A stretch of 10,592 nucleotides of DNA from Nocardia sp. Lineage in GTDB: Bacteria > Actinomycetota > Actinomycetes > Mycobacteriales > Mycobacteriaceae. Positions 1 through 10,433 of the stretch are shown here, piece after piece. The position numbers and the translations under genes are program-made. The stretch is from NCBI GenBank assembly GCA_013361595.1, contig JABFXT010000821.1, positions 1-10,592 of the forward strand. The letters run 5' to 3'. The notes below the pieces were generated by a model. The model saw only the letters and a list, made by a program, of their open reading frames with translations. It ran no database searches and had not been told where the DNA came from. Every line of letters starts with the position of its first letter. Position 1 is the stretch's first letter.

Positions 1-80
1 CGCGGACCTGCCGATACGGAGAGCGCGCCGATATGTGGTTCGGCCAGACACGCCTGTCGTTCATCGAGGGTGAGTGGCAT
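1..80 (-). CDS. PPOX-fold (pyridoxamine 5'-phosphate oxidase-like) protein, N-terminus only
   Basis: Read on the minus strand from the ATG at 80-78, the frame stays open to the window edge and gives about 26 residues beginning MPLTLDERQACLAEPHIGAL. The pattern MPLT-DER-x-FLAEPHI-A-LSV is the usual opening of small actinobacterial split-barrel flavin- or F420-binding proteins of the PPOX superfamily, which are normally about 130-160 residues. The substrate cannot be inferred from this fragment. The rest of the gene lies outside the window. It diverges from the PLP-enzyme operon across 158 bp. No Shine-Dalgarno sequence at normal distance precedes the ATG; instead a -10-like hexamer ends 6 nt before it, so the mRNA may be leaderless. 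Too short for the cofactor-binding residues to be checked; the family call rests on the N-terminal motif alone. Confidence 0.72.
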   Translation of the reverse strand, partial: MPLTLDERQACLAEPHIGALSVSAGP

Positions 81-185: not shown

Positions 186-202
186 ACAATGAGTATCGTT
201 GT
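186..202 (+). promoter_or_regulatory. Imperfect inverted repeat over a candidate -10 box, upstream of the PLP-enzyme operon
   Basis: ACAATGA-gta-TCGTTGT forms two 7-bp arms with one mismatched pair around a 3-bp centre. The right half contains TATCGT (194-199), a TAnnnT-type -10 element that would put transcription start near 206 and leave a short leader with the ribosome binding site at 225-230. No convincing -35 is visible at 17-18 bp spacing. An AT-rich palindrome over a -10 box is typical of a repressor operator. The metal-binding domain encoded downstream makes a metalloregulator possible, but the regulator cannot be named from the sequence. Confidence 0.35.
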
Positions 203-224: not shown

Positions 225-230
225 AAAGGA
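225..230 (+). promoter_or_regulatory. Ribosome binding site that decides the start of the cysteine desulfurase-like gene
   Basis: AAAGGA lies 8 nt before the ATG at 239. This favours 239 over the in-frame ATG at 74, which has no comparable site, would overlap the divergent gene and its promoter, and would add 55 residues unlike the family N-terminus. Confidence 0.6.
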
Positions 231-238
231 GCGATCGG

Positions 239-1531
239 ATGGGATCACCCCTGCGCCGTCCGGAATATCCCGTACTCGTTCCCGGCGTGGCGGCGACCCG
301 GCCGGGCGCGCTGCTGCCGGCGGATGTCCGCACCTCGTTCCCGGCGCTGGCCGAAACGGCGGAGATCTATCTGGACAGTGCCGCCACCACGCAGAAACCC
401 CGCGCTGTGGTCCAAACGGTCCGGGATTACCACGCGGTCGCCACGGCCAATGCGGCGCGCGGCACCTACCCGTGGGCGACGGTGCTCACCCAGCGCATCG
501 CCGCGGTCCGGGCCCGCACCGCGCGGTTCCTGGGTGCCGCCCACACCGACGAGATCGTGTTCACCGGCGGCGCCACCGCGGCGCTCAACGCGGTCGCACT
601 GTCCTGGGGGCTCACCGCCCTCGCGGACGGGGACGAGATCCTCTACAGTCCGCGCGACCACGCGGCGAATATCGCACCCTGGTTCCTGCTCCGGGACACC
701 CTCGCGCATTTCGGCCGCCGGATCGAACTCGTGCCCTACCGGGTCACCGCGGACGGACGAGCGGACACCACCGATATCGCCGGGAAACTCGGCCCCCGGA
801 CCCGGCTGCTCACTGTCACCCATCTGCACCATGTCTACGGCGCTCTCTCCACCCTCGCCGAACTGCGCGACCGAATGCCCGAACGAGTGCTCCTCTGCTT
901 CGACTGCAGCCAGAGTGGCGGCCACATTCCGGTGGACGTCGCGGCGCTCGGTGCCGATTTCGCGGCCTTCGCGGCGCACAAGATGTTCGGGGCGCCGGGC
1001 ACCGGGATTCTGTACTGCCGCCGTCGGATACATTCCGCGCTGCGCCCGTTCCTTCCGGGCGGAACCACCGACGCGTCCCTCACCGCTGCCGGTTTCGCCG
1101 GGGGTGTCATGCCCGGCCTGCTCGAGGGCGGTACGCCCGATATCCCGGGCATTCTCTCCCTGGGAGCAGCCCTCGACGTGCTCGGTTCCTATGGGATGCC
1201 CGCGATCGCGGCGCACAACCGGGAACTGACCGGGCGGTTGATCCGCGGCCTGCGGGCGGTGCCCGGCGTGAGTTTCCTGCCGGGGCCCGCCCACGGGTCC
1301 GGCGACGACGGCTACGGCATCGTCTCGTTCACCCTGGCCGGGATATCGGCGGCGGACCTGGGGTTCGTCCTCGCCGAATACGGCTTTCTCGTCCGGACCG
1401 GCACCCACTGCGTACCCGAGGCCGCGGGCGAACCGGAATCGGTGCGGGTCAGCACCCATATCTACACGGGTATCGACGATATCGACCGCTTCGTCGCCTG
1501 CGTCCGGACTCTCGCCGAGGAGCTGTCATGA
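239..1531 (+). CDS. SufS-like cysteine desulfurase (class V aminotransferase fold)
   Basis: A 430-residue fold-type I PLP enzyme predicted to remove sulfur from cysteine (or a related amino acid) as an enzyme-bound persulfide. The N-terminal YLDSAATTQKP (44-54) is nearly diagnostic of the SufS/CsdA group. FDCSQSGGHIPVDVAALGADF (split here as D222-Q225 and H229-D233) holds the PLP-contacting Asp and Gln, AAHKMFG gives the Schiff-base Lys248, EGGTP (296-300) matches the family EaGTP motif, and RTGTHC places the catalytic Cys391 in the usual RxGxHC loop. All key residues are present, so it should be active. Length fits the family. It is the first gene of a four-gene operon and overlaps the next by ATGA. 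No SufBCD or SufU partner is visible, so it is more likely a dedicated pathway enzyme than the housekeeping Fe-S desulfurase. A cysteine-lyase or sulfinate role is the main alternative. Confidence 0.88.
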   Translation: MGSPLRRPEYPVLVPGVAATRPGALLPADVRTSFPALAETAEIYLDSAATTQKPRAVVQTVRDYHAVATANAARGTYPWATVLTQRIAAVRARTARFLGAAHTDEIVFTGGATAALNAVALSWGLTALADGDEILYSPRDHAANIAPWFLLRDTLAHFGRRIELVPYRVTADGRADTTDIAGKLGPRTRLLTVTHLHHVYGALSTLAELRDRMPERVLLCFDCSQSGGHIPVDVAALGADFAAFAAHKMFGAPGTGILYCRRRIHSALRPFLPGGTTDASLTAAGFAGGVMPGLLEGGTPDIPGILSLGAALDVLGSYGMPAIAAHNRELTGRLIRGLRAVPGVSFLPGPAHGSGDDGYGIVSFTLAGISAADLGFVLAEYGFLVRTGTHCVPEAAGEPESVRVSTHIYTGIDDIDRFVACVRTLAEELS

Positions 1532-2805
1532 GCACAGAGATCAGCGCATCCACCGAAGCCGGCACCCGGTACGACCGCCGCGCCGCCGCCCGGATCCTGG
1601 CCGAACTCGCCCGGCCGGGGTCGCCGGCCGGCAGTCCCCCGCGGCGGCCGGGCAGAGTCGAATACACCGCGACGGAGCTGCGTACCGAACCCGGCAGGCA
1701 TCTCACCGTCTCGCAGCAGCTGTACCTGGAACGCTTCATGCGGCCCTGCCACGCCGACGAGGTCACCTCCGCCACCCACCGGATGACCTGGGTCGACAGT
1801 GCCGGGATCCCCAATACCGGGTTCTATCGGGCGGATGCCCTCGGACCACTCGTACCCATCGCCACCCGCGAGGCGGTACTCGCGCTCTGGCGATCCATCG
1901 ACGAGGACCATGGTCTGGCCGCGCGGATATCCCGGCTCGACCCGGCGGCGCACGCGGTGCTGGCCGGTACCACGACCGATCACGAACCCGTCGACATCTT
2001 CCGGGTCGGGGTGGAATCCGCGGGCCGGGCGCTGGCTCAGCACGCATTGATCGCCCGGCAGACTCCGTACCGCACAGCCGGTGAATTCGCCGGCGGACTA
2101 CACGACTCCGGAATTTTCACCGCGGTCGCCACCCGGTGGTTCTGGGAGCTGCAAGCTTCCACCTACCGGCGCGGGATGATCCCGGTGAGCCTGCGTACCG
2201 TACCGGACGGAACAGTCCGGTACGCGTCGCAGTCGATCGCCACGCTGCGGGCGATGAAGGACGCGACCATTGCCGAGGCGCACGAGGTGATGGCTCGGGC
2301 GACCGGCGTCGAAGGGCTGACCGTTTCCGAGGCGATCGCCCGGTACCACGACGATCTGGACCTCATCTCCCGCCAGTACGCGCTGCTGCCCGCGGGCGAG
2401 CATCCGATCTGCCTCGCCGCGGTCACCCGTCGTGAGGGTTCGGCGAACACCACGGTGCTGTCCGGGGTGGTGGACCGATTGGTCGAGCTGTTCACCGATA
2501 TCGCCGGACACTGCGAGCCGGTCGCCGTGACGCCCCGGGACGAGGCGGGCAGCGGTCCGGCGGACCGGTCGGATCGGATCTTCTATGTGCCCGATATGAC
2601 CTGCAAACACTGTGTACGCACGATCGGCGGCGTGTTGGAGTCGATGAATATCCGGGTCGAGGACATCGACCTCGACAGCAAGCGGGTCGTGGCCGAATTC
2701 CGCAGTCCACGCAACCGCGCTCGCGCCTTCGAGGCGCTGCGCGACGGTGGATACAACCCGGTGGGTGAACGACCGGAAGCGATACGGCCGGGCAGTCCCG
2801 GATGA
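1528..2805 (+). CDS. Unrecognised helical protein with C-terminal heavy-metal-associated (HMA) domain
   Basis: A 425-residue protein starting at the ATG that overlaps the previous stop. Residues 351-415 form an HMA ferredoxin-like domain: IFYVPDMTCKHC contains the MxCxxC copper/soft-metal loop (M357, C359, C362), followed by the typical second half ending in ALRDGGYNPVGE. Residues 1-45 are low-complexity (Ala, Arg, Pro, Gly). Residues about 50-330 look mostly alpha-helical and match no family I recognise; notable points are FMRPCHADE (70-78), several scattered His residues and no nucleotide-binding glycine loop. There is no signal peptide or membrane segment, so it should be cytoplasmic. A Pro/Gly/Asp-rich linker (331-350) joins the two parts. 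HMA domains normally pass Cu(I) or similar ions to a partner; here the partner may be its own N-terminal part or a neighbouring enzyme's product. It overlaps the next gene by ATGA. Confidence 0.8.
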   Translation: MSTEISASTEAGTRYDRRAAARILAELARPGSPAGSPPRRPGRVEYTATELRTEPGRHLTVSQQLYLERFMRPCHADEVTSATHRMTWVDSAGIPNTGFYRADALGPLVPIATREAVLALWRSIDEDHGLAARISRLDPAAHAVLAGTTTDHEPVDIFRVGVESAGRALAQHALIARQTPYRTAGEFAGGLHDSGIFTAVATRWFWELQASTYRRGMIPVSLRTVPDGTVRYASQSIATLRAMKDATIAEAHEVMARATGVEGLTVSEAIARYHDDLDLISRQYALLPAGEHPICLAAVTRREGSANTTVLSGVVDRLVELFTDIAGHCEPVAVTPRDEAGSGPADRSDRIFYVPDMTCKHCVRTIGGVLESMNIRVEDIDLDSKRVVAEFRSPRNRARAFEALRDGGYNPVGERPEAIRPGSPG

Positions 2806-4289
2806 CCGTGCGGCCACCACTGCGCGCCGCCGGATCCGCGCCCGCCGAGCCCACCGGTCCGCCCGCGCTCCCGGCGCGCTGGGATCCGCTCGTCACGTCC
2901 TTCCTCGCCGAGCGGTCGGTTTTCGACGAGGTGCTGCGCGGTTTCGGTACGCCGGTGAACCTGCTCTTCCCGCAAGTGTTCGCCGACAATATCGACCGGC
3001 TCACCGCGGTTCTCGATGCGTCCGGTACCGGATACCGGATCTGCTACGCGCACAAAGTGAACCGGTCCCGAGCCCTGGTCCGCACGGCCGCGGGGCACGG
3101 GATCGGCGTGGATGTGGCCTCGTCCGGCGAACTCGAATCCGCGCTGGCCGCCGGCTTCACCCCCGCACAGATCGAGGTGACCGGACCGAAGGGCGAGGCG
3201 TTCCTGCGCGAGCTGGTGGGTTCCGGGGTGACGGTGAACGTCGACAACGAATGGGAGCTGCAGACTCTCGCCGACCTCGCCGATCCCGCCCGCCCCGTCC
3301 CGGTCCTCCTCCGGGTCAGCGGATTCGCGGGGTCGCAGGTGAGCCGCTTCGGAATTCCGGTACCCCGGATGGAGTACGCGCTGGCGATCCTGGCCCGGCA
3401 CCGGGATCGGCTCGTGTTCCAGGGCACGGCATTCCATCTCGACACCGGCGATATCGGCGAACGGGTCCGCGCCGCCGATACCTGTTTCGCTCTGCTGGAA
3501 CACGCCTACGCCGCCGGCCTCGCGCCGACGGTACTGAATATCGGTGGCGGGCTTCGCCAGGTCTTCACGGCCGACGGTGACCGGTTCGACGATTACGTGA
3601 GCCGTCTACGTGCCTCGCTGGGCGGCGCGGGTACGGCGATGAGCTGGGGAAACAATACCTTCGGTTATCACGTCGACGGCGCGGCCGTGCGCGGGACACC
3701 GATCTTCCACAAGTACGCCAACACCGTTCCCGCCGACGAGATGCTGGCCGATCTCCTGAACGCCCCGCTCGCGCGCCACGGCGGGCGCAGTATCGCCCGG
3801 GTGGCCGCCGACAATCTGCTCGATATCTGGCTCGAACCCGGGAAAGCGCTGGCCGATCACACCGGAATCACGGTGGCCCGCGTGGAATTCGTGAAATCGG
3901 CTGCCGACGGCAGTGTGCTCGTCCATGTGGATATCAGCCGCGACGCGGTGACCCCGGCCGATCAAGAGGTGATGGCCGACCCGCTGCTGCTGCCGGGCGA
4001 ACGGCCCGCACCTGCCGAGAACCCGGTCGGTGTCTTCCTGGCAGGCCGGCTCTGCCTCGAAAGGGATCTCGTCACCACCCATATGGTCTGGTTGCCGTGG
4101 CTGCCCAGACCGGGCGATCTGATCGTGTTCCCGAACACTGCGGGCTATCACATGGATCTGTCGGCGGCCGCCGCGGCCATGCACCCACCGGTCCCGAAGG
4201 TGGCGGTGCTCCGCCACGACGGGCACTTCCGGGCGATACCCGACGCGGACCACCGACCGACCATCCCCGAATCTCCCGAGGTTTCGTGA
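2802..4289 (+). CDS. Y4yA-type fold-III PLP enzyme (diaminopimelate decarboxylase-like)
   Basis: A 495-residue alanine-racemase-fold PLP enzyme related to diaminopimelate/ornithine decarboxylases. CYAHKVN gives the Schiff-base Lys85; GVDVASSGEL (102-111) is the family DvaSxgE motif; FHLDTGD holds His212, which stacks on PLP; NIGGGL (246-251) is the phosphate-binding glycine loop; EPGK (345-348) replaces the usual EPGR; and CLERD (418-422) keeps the Cys and Asp that complete the active site across the dimer. The C-terminal FPNTAGYHMDL (443-453) is typical of the Y4yA subgroup rather than housekeeping LysA. Length is slightly above LysA (about 420-470) because of an N-terminal extension. Decarboxylation of a D- or L-configured amino acid intermediate is likely; the substrate is unknown. 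It starts on the ATGA overlap and itself overlaps the next gene by GTGA. Confidence 0.85.
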   Translation: MTVRPPLRAAGSAPAEPTGPPALPARWDPLVTSFLAERSVFDEVLRGFGTPVNLLFPQVFADNIDRLTAVLDASGTGYRICYAHKVNRSRALVRTAAGHGIGVDVASSGELESALAAGFTPAQIEVTGPKGEAFLRELVGSGVTVNVDNEWELQTLADLADPARPVPVLLRVSGFAGSQVSRFGIPVPRMEYALAILARHRDRLVFQGTAFHLDTGDIGERVRAADTCFALLEHAYAAGLAPTVLNIGGGLRQVFTADGDRFDDYVSRLRASLGGAGTAMSWGNNTFGYHVDGAAVRGTPIFHKYANTVPADEMLADLLNAPLARHGGRSIARVAADNLLDIWLEPGKALADHTGITVARVEFVKSAADGSVLVHVDISRDAVTPADQEVMADPLLLPGERPAPAENPVGVFLAGRLCLERDLVTTHMVWLPWLPRPGDLIVFPNTAGYHMDLSAAAAAMHPPVPKVAVLRHDGHFRAIPDADHRPTIPESPEVS

Positions 4290-5605
4290 CGATCTACCAG
4301 CACATCACCGACCTGATCGGTGACACTCCCCTGCTCCGCCTGGACCCCGCCGTCCATCGGCTCCACGGCGTGGAGCTGTACGCGAAGCTCGAATCGCAGA
4401 ACCCGTTCGGTTCGGTCAAGGACCGAGTCGCCTGGGCGATGCTGCGCGACGAGCTCGAGACCCTGCGAGAACAGCAACGGACGCTGATCGAGGCGTCCAG
4501 TGGCAACACCGCGAAAGCTCTGCGCGTCCTGGGCGCGATCCACGGTATCGACCTGCGGGCGATGACCAACCGGATCAAGGTCGGCGAGGTACGCGATATG
4601 CTCCGGCTGCTCGGCACCGAGATCGTCGAACTTCCCGGGCTCTCCGAATGCCCGGACCCCACCACCCCGAACGACGTGTACTCGGCGATCGATACGGCCA
4701 TGGCCGCCGAACCGGGAAAGTTCCGGCATCTGTCCCAGTACACCAGCGAGAAGAACATCGCCGCCCACCACGACGGCACCGGCCGTGAGATCCACGACGA
4801 CCTCGCGGCCGCGGGAGTCGAGCGGATCGACTACCTGTTCGGCGGGCTGGGCACCACCGGTTCGAGTCGCGGAGCCGGCAGTTATCTGCGTAAATTCCAC
4901 CCGGAGCTGCGGACCGTGGCCGTGGTGTCCGAACGCGAGGACTTCAGCCCCGGTATCCGGTCGGAGCGGGAGATGTGGGAAGTGGGCCTGTTCCAGCCCG
5001 ACTTCTACGACGAGATCATGGCGATCGGATCCGGACCGGCAATATCGGCCACGCTCGAACTCGCCACCGGTTACGGCATCCTGGCCGGCCCCACCAGTGG
5101 CGCCGCCTACGCCGCGGCCCGCGAGGTGCTCGCCCGGCCCGATCGGACGGGTACGCCCGCGGTCGGCGTGATCATCGTCTGCGACCGGCTCGAACCGTAT
5201 CTCTCCTATATCGAGCAGCGCCGGCCGGAGCTGTTCGGTCGCGAGACCGGGCCCCGGCCGCCGGACGCCGCCGAGATCGCCGATGCTCCCTCGTTGATCC
5301 CCGGCGAGCTGGCCGACCTGGTCCGGAAGACACACACGGTGATCGTCGATACACGCGGTGCCATGGCGTACCGGGTGGCCCATATCCCGGGTGCGATCAA
5401 TATTCCCGACGATCGGCTCACCGATCTCTTCGCCCACGGCACACCGTTCTCCCGGGATCGGCCGGTGGTGTTCACCTGTCCCACCGGCGATATCTCCCGC
5501 CGGTTCGCCGCGACCGCGCGGCGGACCGGACATACCGCCTTCAGTCTGGACGGCGGAATCGCGGGTTGGCGGGCGGCCGGGCTGGAACTGGAACGCGGGA
5601 ACTGA
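4286..5605 (+). CDS. Cysteine-synthase-like PLP enzyme fused to a C-terminal rhodanese domain
   Basis: A 439-residue two-domain protein. The start is GTG 4286, overlapping the previous stop (GTGA), with GAGG at 4278-4281; the resulting TIYQHITDLIGDTPLLRL opening is the standard N-terminus of the CysK/CBS family. Residues 1-315 are fold-type II: NPFGSVKDR places PLP Lys45, SSGNT (71-75) is the substrate/PLP loop, and GLGTTGSSRG (187-196) is the phosphate loop, closer in feel to SbnA-type enzymes than to the GTGGT of CysK. Residues about 335-437 are a rhodanese domain: VIVDTRGAMAYRVAHIPGAINIP and the loop CPTGDIS with Cys398, which can carry a persulfide, then DGGIAGWRAAGL. It probably performs a beta-replacement on a serine-derived substrate, with sulfur possibly delivered by its own rhodanese domain. 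This is the last gene of the operon. True cysteine synthesis, cystathionine synthesis or a diaminopropionate-type reaction remain open. Confidence 0.85.
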   Translation: MTIYQHITDLIGDTPLLRLDPAVHRLHGVELYAKLESQNPFGSVKDRVAWAMLRDELETLREQQRTLIEASSGNTAKALRVLGAIHGIDLRAMTNRIKVGEVRDMLRLLGTEIVELPGLSECPDPTTPNDVYSAIDTAMAAEPGKFRHLSQYTSEKNIAAHHDGTGREIHDDLAAAGVERIDYLFGGLGTTGSSRGAGSYLRKFHPELRTVAVVSEREDFSPGIRSEREMWEVGLFQPDFYDEIMAIGSGPAISATLELATGYGILAGPTSGAAYAAAREVLARPDRTGTPAVGVIIVCDRLEPYLSYIEQRRPELFGRETGPRPPDAAEIADAPSLIPGELADLVRKTHTVIVDTRGAMAYRVAHIPGAINIPDDRLTDLFAHGTPFSRDRPVVFTCPTGDISRRFAATARRTGHTAFSLDGGIAGWRAAGLELERGN

Positions 5606-5677: not shown

Positions 5678-6370
5678 TCAGGGCCGGGTGCCGCCCGTGG
5701 CGGTTGTCACCGTCCCGGATGCGGCCGCGGAACGCGGACGGTTCGACGGGGAATCCGTATCCCCCGCGCGGGTCCGTATCAGCACCCCCACCGCGATCAG
5801 CAACCCACCGAGTATCCAGCCCGCGAACACATCCGTGGGCCAGTGCACCCCGAGGTAGATCCGCGAAAGACCCACCAGCACGACGAAAGCGGTGGCGAGG
5901 ACAGCGACGATCGCCGCGGCCACCCGGTGCGCGGTCCGCAGACAGAACAGAGCCGCCAGGACGCCCACGATCGCGGTCGAACCCACACTGTGGCCGGACG
6001 GGAACGAGGCATTGTTCACTTCGACCAGCCGGTCCGCCACCGGTGGCCGATGGCGGCCGATCAACTGCTTCGACACCGGCACCACGATCGCCGACGCCGC
6101 CCCTACTCCGGCGACGAGCAGCAGGTCCGCGTGCGCACCGCGTTTCAGCAGAAACGCGCATGCCACCAGCGCCAGTGTCCACATGGCGACCGATCCGCCG
6201 AGATGGGTGACGGCCGTGGCGGCCGTGGTGAGCGGTTCGTCGCGCCAGGTGAGCACCCAATCGTGCACCGGCCGGTCGATATCGGTCGTGGTGTCGCCCG
6301 CGACGACGTATCCGGTCGTCGCGGCGAACACCGCGAACAGCACCACCGCGAGCCCCAGCACGTATTCCAC
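5678..6370 (-). CDS. PAP2-family membrane phosphatase
   Basis: A 230-residue integral membrane protein read from GTG 6370. The three signature motifs of the type-2 phosphatidic acid phosphatase superfamily are intact: K101-x6-R108-P109 (KQLIGRHRP), P124-SGH127, and S169-R170-x5-H176-x3-D180 (SRIYLGVHWPTD), with His127 and His176 as the catalytic pair. Hydrophobic stretches near 4-24, 61-76, 82-99, 131-145, 150-168 and 183-199 fit the usual six-helix layout. Members dephosphorylate membrane lipids such as phosphatidic acid, phosphatidylglycerophosphate or undecaprenyl pyrophosphate; the substrate here is not determinable. The C-terminal 30 residues are polar and low-complexity. It is convergent with the PLP-enzyme operon and divergent from the small membrane protein gene across 65 bp. 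No clear Shine-Dalgarno is seen. Confidence 0.9.
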   Translation of the reverse strand: MEYVLGLAVVLFAVFAATTGYVVAGDTTTDIDRPVHDWVLTWRDEPLTTAATAVTHLGGSVAMWTLALVACAFLLKRGAHADLLLVAGVGAASAIVVPVSKQLIGRHRPPVADRLVEVNNASFPSGHSVGSTAIVGVLAALFCLRTAHRVAAAIVAVLATAFVVLVGLSRIYLGVHWPTDVFAGWILGGLLIAVGVLIRTRAGDTDSPSNRPRSAAASGTVTTATGGTRP

Positions 6371-6783: not shown

Positions 6784-6814
6784 CCACCCGGTACGCCGGG
6801 GGACGCCCGCCCAC

Positions 6815-6820
6815 TACTGT
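6815..6820 (+). promoter_or_regulatory. Candidate -10 hexamer of the TetR gene (leaderless)
   Basis: TACTGT fits TAnnnT and ends 6 nt before the GTG at 6827, the same geometry as at 6424-6429. No Shine-Dalgarno sequence precedes the start. The -35 region has no recognisable match. Confidence 0.5.
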
Positions 6821-6826
6821 GGACGG

Positions 6827-7450
6827 GTGCAATCAGATGAGCGATCGGACGACAGCGGGCCCCGGATCTGGGGTGGTACCACGCTTTCCGAGCGAAAGCA
6901 GGCACGACGCAGCGCGTTGCTCGAGGCCGCGCTCGATCTGATCGGTGAATCCGGCGCCGCCGGGGTCACGATGCGGGCGGTATGCCGCCGGGCCAATCTC
7001 ACCGACCGGTATTTCTACGAAAGTTTCGCCAGCCGCGACGAACTCCTCGATGTGCTCTACCGGCAGATCGCCGACGATTTCCTCGATCCGATGACCGCGT
7101 TCGCCGTCGCCGACGACGCGTCACGAGACCGGGCGCTCTCGGAAGCGCTGGTGGACAAGGTGCTCGAAGATCCCCGCAAATCACGGCTGTTCCTGGTGGA
7201 GCCGTATTCCAGCACCGGTCTCGGCCAGACCACGATCGCGGTGATGCCCGCCTTCACCCGGCTCATCCAGGATCATCTGTTCGCGCAGATCGACGATCCG
7301 GTCCGGCGGCGCCTCGCGGCCGTCACCATGGCGAGTGGGAACGCGGGCATGTTCTCGGCCTGGCTCAACGGTTCGCTGCGGGCCACCCGCGCGGAGATCG
7401 TCGAACATCTCGTCGCCATGCTGGGGGCGTACCGCGGTCTCTATCGCTGA
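6827..7450 (+). CDS. TetR/AcrR-family transcriptional regulator
   Basis: A 207-residue regulator starting at GTG 6827. After a polar N-terminal tail of about 20 residues comes a TetR DNA-binding domain: SERKQARRSALLEAALDLIG (21-40) is helix 1, GVTMRAVCRRANLTDRYFY (46-64) is the helix-turn-helix, and ESFASRDELL (65-74) is the family's conserved helix-4 region. The ligand domain (about 80-207) is variable, so the inducer cannot be predicted. No other start in frame is closer to the domain than about 20 residues upstream. Such proteins usually repress their own or adjacent genes; the candidate targets are the downstream NfeD/flotillin/cold-shock genes, the upstream membrane protein and its own promoter. 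No clear palindromic operator was seen in the 43 bp upstream. Confidence 0.88.
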   Translation: MQSDERSDDSGPRIWGGTTLSERKQARRSALLEAALDLIGESGAAGVTMRAVCRRANLTDRYFYESFASRDELLDVLYRQIADDFLDPMTAFAVADDASRDRALSEALVDKVLEDPRKSRLFLVEPYSSTGLGQTTIAVMPAFTRLIQDHLFAQIDDPVRRRLAAVTMASGNAGMFSAWLNGSLRATRAEIVEHLVAMLGAYRGLYR

Positions 7451-7745: not shown

Positions 7746-8833
7746 GTGCTGGGTTATCACGTGCCAGATCCCGATGAGGCGATGCTGGTCAGCGGCGCCA
7801 AGAGTCGCGACGCCACACCGTTCCGGGTCATCATCGGACGCGGCACGTGGGTGATGCCGTTCTTCCGCAAGGTCCGCTATCTGTCCCTGGCCATGTTCGA
7901 GGCCGAGATCACCGAACGCTGCGTCACCAAACAGGCCATCGTCCTGCAGGTACGAGCGGTCATCGCGTTCAAGGTCGCCAACGACACCCCCTCCATCGTG
8001 AACGCGGCCCAGCGGTTCCTGTCCGAGCAGGAACAGGAGATGTCGGTGCTGACCGGGCGGATCTTCTCCGGTCACCTGCGGTCCATCGTCGGTTCGATGA
8101 CGGTGGAGGAGATCATCCGGGAACGGCAGCGGCTCGCCGACGAGGTCCTGGTCGCGTCGAAGGTGGAGATGAGCAATATCGGCCTGTGGGTCGACTCGTT
8201 CCAGATCCAGTCCATCGACGACGGCGACCTGGGGTACATCTCCGCCCTCGCCGCCCCGCACAACGCGGCCGTACACCGGGACGCGCAGATCGCGAAATCC
8301 CAGGCTGCCCAGCGTTCCGCCGAGGCCGAGCAGGAATCCTTGCGCAAACAGGCCGAGTACTCGCGCGAGACATCGATCCTCAAAGCCGGTTATCAGCGCG
8401 ATATCGACAAAGCGCAGGCCCCCTCGCCGCGGCCCTCGCCCAGCAGGAGGTGCTCGGTGCGCAGGCCGCTCAGGCCCGCAAGGAGGCCGAACTCCGGGAG
8501 CAGCAGTTGCAGGCCGAGGTCGTCAAACCGGCACAGGCTGAAGCCGAGCGGGTGAAGATCCTCGCCGAGGCCGAGGCCAATCGCACCCGGATCCAGGCCG
8601 AGGCGGCCGCCTCCAACAACCGCATCGCGCTCGACCAGATGCTCATCGAGCAGTTGCCGCTCATCGTGGAGCAGGCCGCCCGCGGTCTCTCCAACGCCAA
8701 TCTGACCGTTCTGAACGGGCCCGATGGGGTGGGCGAACTGCTCAACGGCATGGTCGGACAGGGGCTGACGGTATTCAACTCGCTGCAAAAGGCGCTTTCG
8801 GCCACCGACGAGGAAAAACCGGATATAGAGTGA
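7746..8833 (+). pseudogene. Flotillin / SPFH-domain protein gene, frameshifted near 8411-8425
   Basis: The 5' part (GTG 7746 to about 8420, 225 residues) encodes an SPFH/band-7 domain (about 5-165) and the start of an Ala/Glu/Gln-rich coiled coil (about 172-225, ending GYQRDIDKAQA). Homology then continues in a different frame: from about 8411-8423 to 8833 the sequence reads SAGPLAAALAQQEVLGAQAA, further coiled coil, then NNRIALDQMLIEQLPLIVEQ and the conserved NLTVLNGPDGVGELLNGMVG tail of bacterial flotillins. The original frame instead runs into Arg/Pro/Ser-rich sequence and stops at 8555. The net shift equals a missing base (or an equivalent loss). Intact flotillins scaffold membrane microdomains; the truncated form would lack the second half of the coiled coil and the oligomerisation tail. 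A sequencing or assembly error in the C5 run at 8419-8423 is a serious alternative. The good codon character on both sides suggests a recent event. Confidence 0.8.
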
Positions 8834-8849
8834 CCAGCAGAACTGCGGC

Positions 8850-8855
8850 GAGGAG
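8850..8855 (+). promoter_or_regulatory. Ribosome binding site favouring GTG 8863 for the cold-shock gene
   Basis: GAGGAG lies 7 nt before GTG 8863 and 4 nt before GTG 8860. The upstream in-frame GTG at 8830, which overlaps the flotillin stop as GTGA, has only a poorly spaced GAGG about 16 nt away. Confidence 0.5.
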
Positions 8856-8862
8856 CGGTGTG

Positions 8863-9243
8863 GTGGCCAGCGGGAAATTGGTGTCGTTCGACGGATCGCG
8901 GGGATTCGGTTTCATCCGCCCCGAGGACGGTGGACCCGACGTGTTCGTCCACGTCAACGATATCGGCCTGGGCGAGGACGAGCTCCGACAGGGGCGCGTC
9001 TTCGAATTCGACGTCACCGAGGGTGATCGCGGTCCCAAGGCGATCAACCTCCGGTCGCCACGCGGCCAGCACGTCCGGCCCAAACCGGTGACCGACGGAA
9101 CCCGGCTGACGGCCGACGAACACACCCGGCTGGTCACCGAACTTCTCCTGGACGCCTCCCCGGCGCTGACCGCCGGGGAGATCGTCGCCATCCGGGAACG
9201 GCTCACCGATTTCGCGGTCGAACGGGGCTGGATCGACGGCTGA
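8863..9243 (+). CDS. Cold-shock-domain nucleic-acid-binding protein with C-terminal extension
   Basis: About 126 residues from GTG 8863 (137 if translation begins at GTG 8830, which overlaps the flotillin stop). The first 65 residues are a cold-shock domain: ASGKLVSFDGSRGFGFIRPEDG contains RNP-1 (RGFGFIR, split here as GSRGFGFIR), and DVFVHVNDI contains RNP-2, the aromatic and basic surface that binds single-stranded RNA or DNA. ASGKLV at the N-terminus matches the normal start of the domain, and the strong Shine-Dalgarno at 8850-8855 supports 8863. A hinge rich in Arg, Pro and Gly leads to a C-terminal helical part (about 85-126) not found in classical 67-residue cold-shock proteins; this longer form is common in mycolata. 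It probably acts as an RNA chaperone or regulator. It may be co-transcribed with the flotillin gene. Confidence 0.85.
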   Translation: MASGKLVSFDGSRGFGFIRPEDGGPDVFVHVNDIGLGEDELRQGRVFEFDVTEGDRGPKAINLRSPRGQHVRPKPVTDGTRLTADEHTRLVTELLLDASPALTAGEIVAIRERLTDFAVERGWIDG

Positions 9244-9283: not shown

Positions 9284-9335
9284 CGGGGGCGATGATTCGG
9301 CGTCGGCCACGGCGTCGATACGGGTGAGCCGACCC

Positions 9336-9342
9336 GAGGAGG
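9336..9342 (+). promoter_or_regulatory. Ribosome binding site that fixes the ligC start
   Basis: GAGGAGG lies 5 nt before GTG 9348. This rules out the in-frame GTG at 9324, which has no such site; the protein from 9348 begins with the conserved MDLPV of LigC. Confidence 0.75.
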
Positions 9343-9347
9343 ATCGT

Positions 9348-10433
9348 GTGGATCTACCGGTGCAACCGCCCATCCGGCCCATGCTGGCCAAATCCGCGCC
9401 CGAGATCCCCTCGGGTCCGGGGCTGAGTTACGAACCCAAATGGGACGGGTTCCGGTGCGTGGTGTTCCGCGACGGCGACGAAGTGGAACTCGGGTCGCGC
9501 AACGATCGCCCGCTCACCCGGTATTTCCCGGAGGTCGCCGAACTGCTGCGCGCCGCGCTGCCGGCGCGGTGCGTCGTGGACGGTGAGATCGTGCTGGTCA
9601 CCGAGCACGGCCTCGATTTCGATGTCCTCCAGCAGCGCTTGCACCCCGCCGCGTCACGAGTGGCCAAGCTCGCCGCGGAGACGCCGGCCAGTTTCGTGGC
9701 CTTCGACCTGCTCGCGCTCGGTGACCGGGATCTGACCGGCGCGCCGTTCGGTGAACGCCGGCGGCTGCTGGAGACCATTCTCGACACCGAACCCGGCCGG
9801 GTGCATCTCACCCCGCTGACCGGTGATCCGGCGGTGGCCCGCGACTGGTTCACCCGGTTCGAGGGTGCCGGTTTCGACGGGGTGATGGTGAAGGCCGACG
9901 ATCAGCCGTATCAGCAGAACAAGCGGGTGATGCTCAAGGTGAAGCACGAGCGGACCGCCGACTGCGTGGTGGCGGGCTTCCGATGGCATAAGGACGGACA
10001 GGGGGTCGGTTCCCTGCTGCTGGGCCTCTACGACGACGAGGGCCGACTGCACCATGTGGGCGTGGCGAGCAGTTTCACCGCCGCCCGGCGCACCGAACTG
10101 ATCGGTGAACTCGCTCCCTACCGGGAGAACGCGCTGGCGAATCATCCGTGGCGGGAGTGGGCCGATGCCGCGGCCCAGGCCGCGTCGGGCGGCTCGATGC
10201 CCGGCGGGGTGAGCCGGTGGAGCGGCGGTAAAGACCTCTCCTGGGAGCCGCTGCGGGCGGAGCTGGTGGCCGAGGTGCGCTACGAGCATCTGCAGTCCGG
10301 CCGGTTCCGGCACGGCGGACGGCTGGTCCGGTTCCGTCCCGATCGCACGCCCGAATCGTGCACCTACGCCCAGCTGGACGAGGCCGCACCCGCCGAACTG
10401 CACGAGATCTTCGGAACCCCGGTGGCGAAATGA
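9348..10433 (+). CDS. ligC: ATP-dependent DNA ligase LigC
   Basis: A 361-residue ATP-dependent DNA ligase starting at GTG 9348. It opens MDLPVQPPIRPMLAKS, as in mycobacterial LigC (about 358 residues). Motif I is EPKWDGFR with the adenylated Lys31; SRNDR (50-54) is motif Ia; VVDGEI (76-81) follows; FVAFDLLAL (116-124) is motif III; GFDGVMVK (175-182) is motif IV; MLKVK (195-199) is motif V. Residues from about 205 form the OB-fold domain. All catalytic motifs are intact. LigC seals nicks and, with the adjacent Prim-PolC, has been implicated in short-gap and excision repair; it is distinct from the multidomain LigD of Ku-dependent end joining. It overlaps the following polymerase gene by ATGA, so the two are translationally coupled. 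A PafBC-type promoter at 9261-9283 suggests induction by DNA damage. Confidence 0.93.
   Translation: MDLPVQPPIRPMLAKSAPEIPSGPGLSYEPKWDGFRCVVFRDGDEVELGSRNDRPLTRYFPEVAELLRAALPARCVVDGEIVLVTEHGLDFDVLQQRLHPAASRVAKLAAETPASFVAFDLLALGDRDLTGAPFGERRRLLETILDTEPGRVHLTPLTGDPAVARDWFTRFEGAGFDGVMVKADDQPYQQNKRVMLKVKHERTADCVVAGFRWHKDGQGVGSLLLGLYDDEGRLHHVGVASSFTAARRTELIGELAPYRENALANHPWREWADAAAQAASGGSMPGGVSRWSGGKDLSWEPLRAELVAEVRYEHLQSGRFRHGGRLVRFRPDRTPESCTYAQLDEAAPAELHEIFGTPVAK

Follow-up and report, generated by a model that had tools for sequence, protein, structure and literature searches.

A four-gene operon core to Nocardia that joins three pyridoxal phosphate enzymes to rhodanese and HMA domains, tentatively read as a sulfur-relay pathway

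Why are three different pyridoxal phosphate (PLP) enzymes, a rhodanese, and an HMA domain encoded together in one tightly packed operon? The question is raised by positions 239-5605 of the window, by which we mean the whole 10,592-nucleotide stretch analyzed here, contig C384 of a Nocardia genome (5.18 Mb, 78% complete) whose closest relatives are Nocardia species. Four overlapping genes are read there on the forward strand: c1 (239..1531), encoding a SufS-like class V PLP enzyme of fold I; c2 (1528..2805), encoding an N-terminal domain without known family and a C-terminal HMA domain; c3 (2802..4289), encoding a Y4yA-like, decarboxylase-like PLP enzyme of fold III; and c4 (4286..5605), encoding a CysM-like PLP enzyme of fold II fused to a rhodanese. 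The operon belongs to the core genes of Nocardia and stands apart from housekeeping cysteine and iron-sulfur metabolism, and a dedicated Nocardia sulfur-relay pathway is its best explanation, one that we hold tentatively, at a little under even confidence.

Distribution and conservation of the four genes

Scanning with c2 gave 79 loci, almost all of them from Nocardia; Planosporangium thailandense carried all four genes at 55-58%. Among the whole genomes of 99 relatives, c2 was present in 59/59 Nocardia, and the remaining 40 included one genome (G089) with relatives of all four genes, at ~47-59% and in pieces, and one further genome with a weak HMA-like match only. In a class-wide sample of 394 genomes, with four candidates scored per genome, c2 was found in all four Nocardia and in none of the 390 others. 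Conserved co-occurrence, on which the initial annotation had made its pathway depend, was confirmed for c2, c3, and c4, each present in 128/128 Nocardia genomes, and for c1 in 119 of them, c1 being absent in nine. In two genomes (G020, locus L071, and G535) c2 had been relocated away from c3-c4 yet was retained. Found throughout the searched Nocardia and rare in the sampled relatives, the block marks a genus-level trait.

The 4-nt overlaps first described between the genes are present in the window, and the junctions are conserved across loci. An ATGA at 1528..1531 joins the c1 stop to the c2 start (4 nt in 64/74 loci), a second ATGA at 2802..2805 joins c2 to c3 (4 nt in 61/76), and a GTGA at 4286..4289 joins c3 to c4, where the overlap is 4 nt in 30/74 loci and often 1 nt (33/74). 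Since the flanking genes, upstream and downstream, differ between clades around a constant block, the block itself is the unit. A larger conserved operon was considered and rejected, none being seen and the neighbors changing from clade to clade; the gene caller was crude and also called antisense open reading frames, which makes neighbor-cluster counts indicative only, and 17 cluster representatives were inspected by eye to decide which genes are absent from the neighborhood. A plasmid origin was likewise set aside, because at E 1e-5 nothing in the plasmid collection matched c2.

A housekeeping role was rejected because CysK/M and SufS enzymes scoring above their cut-offs were found separately, while c1 and c4 score below those cut-offs. 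Housekeeping CysK/M was present in 29/30 Nocardia genomes (the exception being G021) and housekeeping SufS (TIGR01979) in 29/30, the exception being the window's own incomplete genome. These results also answer the concern, raised with the first description, that these might be enzymes of unrelated housekeeping reactions.

Active sites and the proposed relay

Active-site residues were counted over the non-gap rows of an alignment with up to 77 four-gene rows and eight rows from the trio, a paralogous set without c2 that is described below. All three PLP enzymes score below the curated NCBIfam cut-offs of the families listed. The c1 product, a class V PLP enzyme that carries desulfurase residues, passes the cut-off of PF00266 (Aminotran_5) at 286.8 bits and scores 299.3 bits against the SufS model TIGR01979 (cut-off 475.1). 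Its PLP Lys248 (980-982) is kept in 73/73 rows and its catalytic Cys391 (1409-1411) in 74/74, with 8/8 in the trio, and it is a predicted cysteine desulfurase of the SufS kind. The conserved lysine and cysteine are shared with the desulfurases of SufS/SufE and SufS/SufU iron-sulfur donors, from which c1 is set apart by its score and by the separate housekeeping SufS.

A further likeness is to the family 2A encapsulin systems, which, in the excerpt of PMC8346489, join a SufS-like desulfurase and a rhodanese with serine/cysteine metabolism genes such as serine O-acetyltransferase. The c1 product matches the cargo model NF041166 at 244.5 bits, and this, together with a retention across the genus that would fit a stress function, speaks for sulfane-sulfur homeostasis: c1 and c4 would trap persulfide or sulfide in the form of cysteine or of an amino acid carrying a persulfide, as a shell-less analog of encapsulin 2A, and c3 and c2 would handle by-products or copper-sulfur toxicity. 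We consider this improbable. The match lies far under the cut-off of 800 bits and covers model positions 229-623 only, c1 being without the long N-terminal cargo region; the rhodanese is here fused to the CysM-like enzyme, with a decarboxylase and c2 also present; and no shell gene was noticed by eye in the 17 neighbor clusters, although no dedicated search was made. Moreover, c4 is accompanied, in the aligned loci and in 24/24 trio loci, by a decarboxylase-like gene whose active site is conserved, which points to biosynthesis.

That decarboxylase-like partner, c3, matches PF02784 at 86 bits and shares ~30-34% identity over most of its length with genes annotated Y4yA (an annotation name only); its PLP Lys85 (3054-3056) is kept in 77/77 rows and its Cys418 (4053-4055) in 75/75. 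The c4 product exceeds the cut-offs of both PALP PF00291 (161.3 bits) and rhodanese PF00581 (65.5 bits) and stays below those of TIGR01136, TIGR01138, and TIGR01139 (158, 136, and 131 bits against 344, 394, and 351), and in PDB profile matching it comes closest to cysteine synthases, with CysM-type enzymes among the first matches. Its PLP Lys45 (4418-4420) is kept in 75/75 rows, and Cys398 (5477-5479), in the rhodanese domain (5300..5575, residues 339-430), in 74/74 rows and 8/8 of the trio. In the four-gene and the trio rows alike, the PLP lysines of the three enzymes, Cys391, Cys418, and Cys398 are invariant wherever there is no gap. The rhodanese loop, CPTGDIS in the window, is of the CxxGxxS type in the alignment. 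For the PDB matches 8h4h and 8h4q, named "Rhodanese domain-containing protein", no paper was found.

The genome also holds its own CysM orthologue, which scores 536 bits to chains 3dwg and 3dki (cysteine synthase B/O-phosphoserine sulfhydrylase). The substrate loop of c4 is invariantly SSGNTAK, not TSGNTGI as in that orthologue, whereas its invariant Arg225, part of a GIR motif, lines up with the arginine of the orthologue. The CysM of M. tuberculosis uses O-phosphoserine and the carrier CysO (excerpt of PMC11361707), and thiosulfate is also accepted by CysM-type enzymes (excerpt of PMC9855970). With the mycobacterial CysM/CysO system c4 would share a CysM-like fold-II enzyme fed by protein-bound sulfur, not free sulfide; it differs in its predicted carrier, a persulfide on a fused rhodanese instead of a thiocarboxylated ubiquitin-like protein, and in its desulfurase and decarboxylase partners. 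By score c4 falls outside the CysM family, and it may nevertheless work like CysM in accepting protein-bound sulfur.

The pairing of c3 and c4 invites another comparison. The staphyloferrin B route comprises SbnA, SbnB, and SbnH, and both it and rhizobial sets of Y4yA and cysteine-synthase-like genes (L109) place a fold-II enzyme beside a fold-III decarboxylase-like one. If c4 were SbnA-like, with a nitrogen nucleophile, and c3 SbnH-like, the operon would make a diaminopropionate or diamine metallophore, an amine that binds copper or zinc. In favor of this, c3 relatives stand beside cysteine-synthase-like, IucA/IucC, and octopine/nopaline dehydrogenase genes (L109) and beside cysteine-synthase-like and ornithine cyclodeaminase genes a few kb from copper genes (L110), a Y4yA-like/CysK-like/MATE-like set lies elsewhere in the genome of the window (L159), and c4 matches the SbnA model TIGR03945 at 128.5 bits. 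However, that model's cut-off is 350 bits, no SbnB-like gene or NRPS-independent siderophore (NIS) synthetase gene was seen by eye in the 17 neighbor clusters, and the rhodanese cysteine and the desulfurase partner, both conserved, would be needless for a nitrogen nucleophile. We give a metallophore an even lower probability than homeostasis. Nor was a siderophore synthetase or exporter seen to stay with the block across clades, within the crude gene calls of the 17 clusters judged by eye.

As a separate observation, the set elsewhere in the genome (L159:1-3301; G000:C104:7500-10800) consists of a Y4yA-like gene, 29% to c3, adjoining an SbnA/CysK-like gene and what is, by eye, a MATE-type transporter gene, and it resembles a set on the M. 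avium plasmid pMAH135 (L110).

In the preferred sulfur-relay reading, c1 would take the sulfur of cysteine as a persulfide on Cys391, to judge from its residues, and the rhodanese of c4 would receive it on Cys398, a step supported by the loss of c1 where another SufS of its kind is present. The CysM-like domain would convert an activated serine-type substrate to aminoacrylate and then add sulfur or persulfide, as its CysM-like active site suggests. Subsequently, c3 would decarboxylate the c4 product, or a later adduct, to a cysteamine- or cysteamine-persulfide-type aminothiol. In the weakest step, c2 would come into play downstream; it is probably a metal-dependent enzyme, and its HMA domain would supply copper or guard it. 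The relay from c1 to c4 is likely, beta-replacement by c4 with decarboxylation by c3 is plausible, and a cysteamine-type aminothiol or persulfide is our best guess at the product. The initial annotation had already traced the sulfur from cysteine through Cys391 to Cys398, and this part fits the invariant residues and the loss of c1 in trio-bearing genomes; its beta-replacement and decarboxylation are consistent with the conserved active sites, the substrates remaining putative. Its metal-ligand product draws on the HMA domain and fares less well, as the trio stands without an HMA protein of the c2 kind. The operon offers a testable case of desulfurase sulfur handed to a CysM-like enzyme via a fused rhodanese.

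The trio and the loss of c1

The trio consists of Y4yA, CysM-rhodanese, and SufS genes, in an order kept on one strand in 24/24 loci (seven of 18 Nocardia copies, two plasmids, and 15 class genomes), and no c2 was found in these neighborhoods at E 1e-40 (24/24). As a second copy, with c4 at 43-46%, it occurs in 18/128 Nocardia genomes, and at the threshold used it occurs in 15/390 non-Nocardia class genomes, 13 of them in one genus, which is taken to be Streptomyces. Two Streptomyces plasmid records carry adjoining c3-, c4-, and c1-like genes without c2. By a strict test, 7/24 loci have a same-strand methyltransferase gene 3' of the trio, and members of its cluster are present in 11 loci, as would be expected if a thiol product were capped.

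Three side observations concern the trio loci. An S-adenosylmethionine methyltransferase gene (L108:17632-18525) follows the trio in many Streptomyces-like loci. Four Nocardia trio loci have, by eye, a different methyltransferase-like gene convergent to the trio. In Streptomyces sp. NBC_01237, the trio has a CobW-type GTPase gene (L107:11211-12512) ~1 kb upstream.

The nine Nocardia genomes without a c1 orthologue (G012, G015, G018, G020, G031, G037, G500, G535, and G548) were called by a best match of at most 44% identity, against at least 59% in the other 119. The trio was present in 9/9 of them and in 9/119 others (Fisher p 2.6e-9, a value that ignores kinship). Among 49 named genomes it was present in 7/7 c1-less and 4/42 others, six of these seven being apparently among the nine, by coordinates; for L068, c1 was sought only within the fetched locus. 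A tree built from c2, c3, and c4 shows six changes of the c1 state, all of them independent losses in trio-bearing lineages, and c1 loss and the trio agree in 6/6 independent pairs (sign test p 0.031).

In four loci (L063, L066, L154, and L155), c1 remnants without the PLP lysine stand just before c2, with Arg at the cysteine position in L155. Despite large deletions, the remnants stay open in a single frame up to a stop that lies immediately ahead of c2 or overlaps it, as though this short frame were retained to couple c2 translation. The rest of the block is retained: in 10/10 c1-less cases c4 keeps its rhodanese cysteine, including the CxxGxxS loop, and its PLP motif, c2 keeps its HMA cysteines, and c3 fits its cysteine motif.

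Because the losses of c1 fall in trio-bearing genomes, c1 is most simply read as a sulfur donor for which the SufS of the trio can substitute, with c2, c3, and c4 making something that the trio does not. Repeated c1 loss beside the trio is a natural experiment, and it predicts interchangeable sulfur donors.

Several points weigh against the relay and this reading of c1. The tree test comprises six pairs only and a quick method, and the trio itself changes nine times. In Nocardia crassostreae (L055:8722-9977 and L164, the same genome), c1 is frameshifted with its downstream part conserved, and no trio was found in that genome, which breaks the loss rule unless the frameshift, which may be a sequencing error or a recent mutation, is the former. 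The lysine motif of c3 misses the strict pattern in 2/10 c1-less cases (8/10 fit), and c3 scores 111.6 bits against LysA TIGR01048, below its cut-off of 298. The IPGIR motif is also present in solved O-acetylserine sulfhydrylase B chains, so that O-phosphoserine is compatible with c4 as substrate and no more than that. Transfer of cysteine sulfur onto a plain serine acceptor would give cysteine again and be futile; thus, the acceptor or the product must differ from cysteine. Finally, as the trio stands without c2, c2 would be dispensable for the core chemistry.

A more specific version of the pathway appears rather unlikely to us. It would have the desulfurase, the rhodanese-CysM enzyme, and the decarboxylase make an undescribed aminothiol or aminopersulfide throughout Nocardia, which c2, with a new fold and a copper-chaperone domain, uses or metallates, while the Streptomyces-like trio makes a methylated variant and can supply its sulfur donor to the Nocardia pathway. 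No description of the gene set was found in the literature covered, the open-licence papers of PubMed Central. Each enzyme superfamily is known; what appears to be new is their combination and its genus-wide fixation, along with the trio and the pattern of c1 replacement. A little-studied decarboxylase-like group and a protein domain without recognized structure come with them.

The c2 protein and the surroundings of the operon

The N-terminal domain of c2 (1564..2556, residues 13-343) was modeled from 50 rows with a predicted local distance difference test score (pLDDT) of 87 and a predicted template modeling score (pTM) of 0.87. No convincing match to it was found in Pfam, PHROGs, PDB sequences, Foldseek, or VIA-align, which leaves a new fold unproven, and distant relatives of c2 may exist. 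Heme-oxygenase-like diiron oxidases were not among its structural matches, an absence that, as the tool warns, does not amount to exclusion. In the 50 rows, mostly from one genus, 79 positions are invariant, including Cys74, His84, Glu163, His172, Glu207, His274, Asp278, and Cys295; that many of them are polar argues for an enzyme. The HMA domain (2572..2763, ~residues 349-412) has the motif MTCKHC, and Cys359 (2602-2604) and Cys362 (2611-2613) are invariant in the same rows. This part of c2 looks like a copper chaperone and is a candidate CopZ-like HMA domain, a kind whose marks are a Pfam cut-off of 24.8 bits, an MxCxxC motif, and a ferredoxin-like fold.

These features would also suit an operon in which c2 is itself the end product, a copper metalloenzyme, with the three PLP enzymes making or bringing a sulfur-containing group for it. 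The presence of c2 in every Nocardia genome searched, even where it has moved from c3-c4, and the invariant polar residues of its N-terminal domain favor such a maturation role. Conversely, the 24/24 trio loci with no c2 nearby imply that the three enzymes have a role without c2, and we rate this as the least probable of the explanations considered.

The operon is preceded by an RBS-like (ribosome-binding site) AAAGGAG at 225..231 (+), seen in the upstream alignment, and by a box, TGAGTATCGTTG, at 190..201 (+), whose core GTATNGT is kept in relatives in an alignment of 26 upstream regions. The box is possibly the -10 region of a promoter; no known operator was recognized in it, and no promoter scan was made. 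At the contig end, the first 26 codons of a PNPOx-family gene (1..80, minus strand; MPLTLDERQACLAEPHIGALSVSAGP) resemble the start of L040:8136-8573:- (Pyridox_ox_2/PNPOx_N). Such a gene stands divergently beside c1 in 49/79 loci and looks like an optional companion of the block, outside the four genes. Downstream of the operon lie genes for a PAP2 phosphatase (5678-6370, minus strand), a TetR regulator (6800-7450), a flotillin-like protein (7746-8555), a cold-shock protein (8830-9243), and an ATP-dependent DNA ligase (9324-10433), in an order that is retained in some Nocardia clades only.

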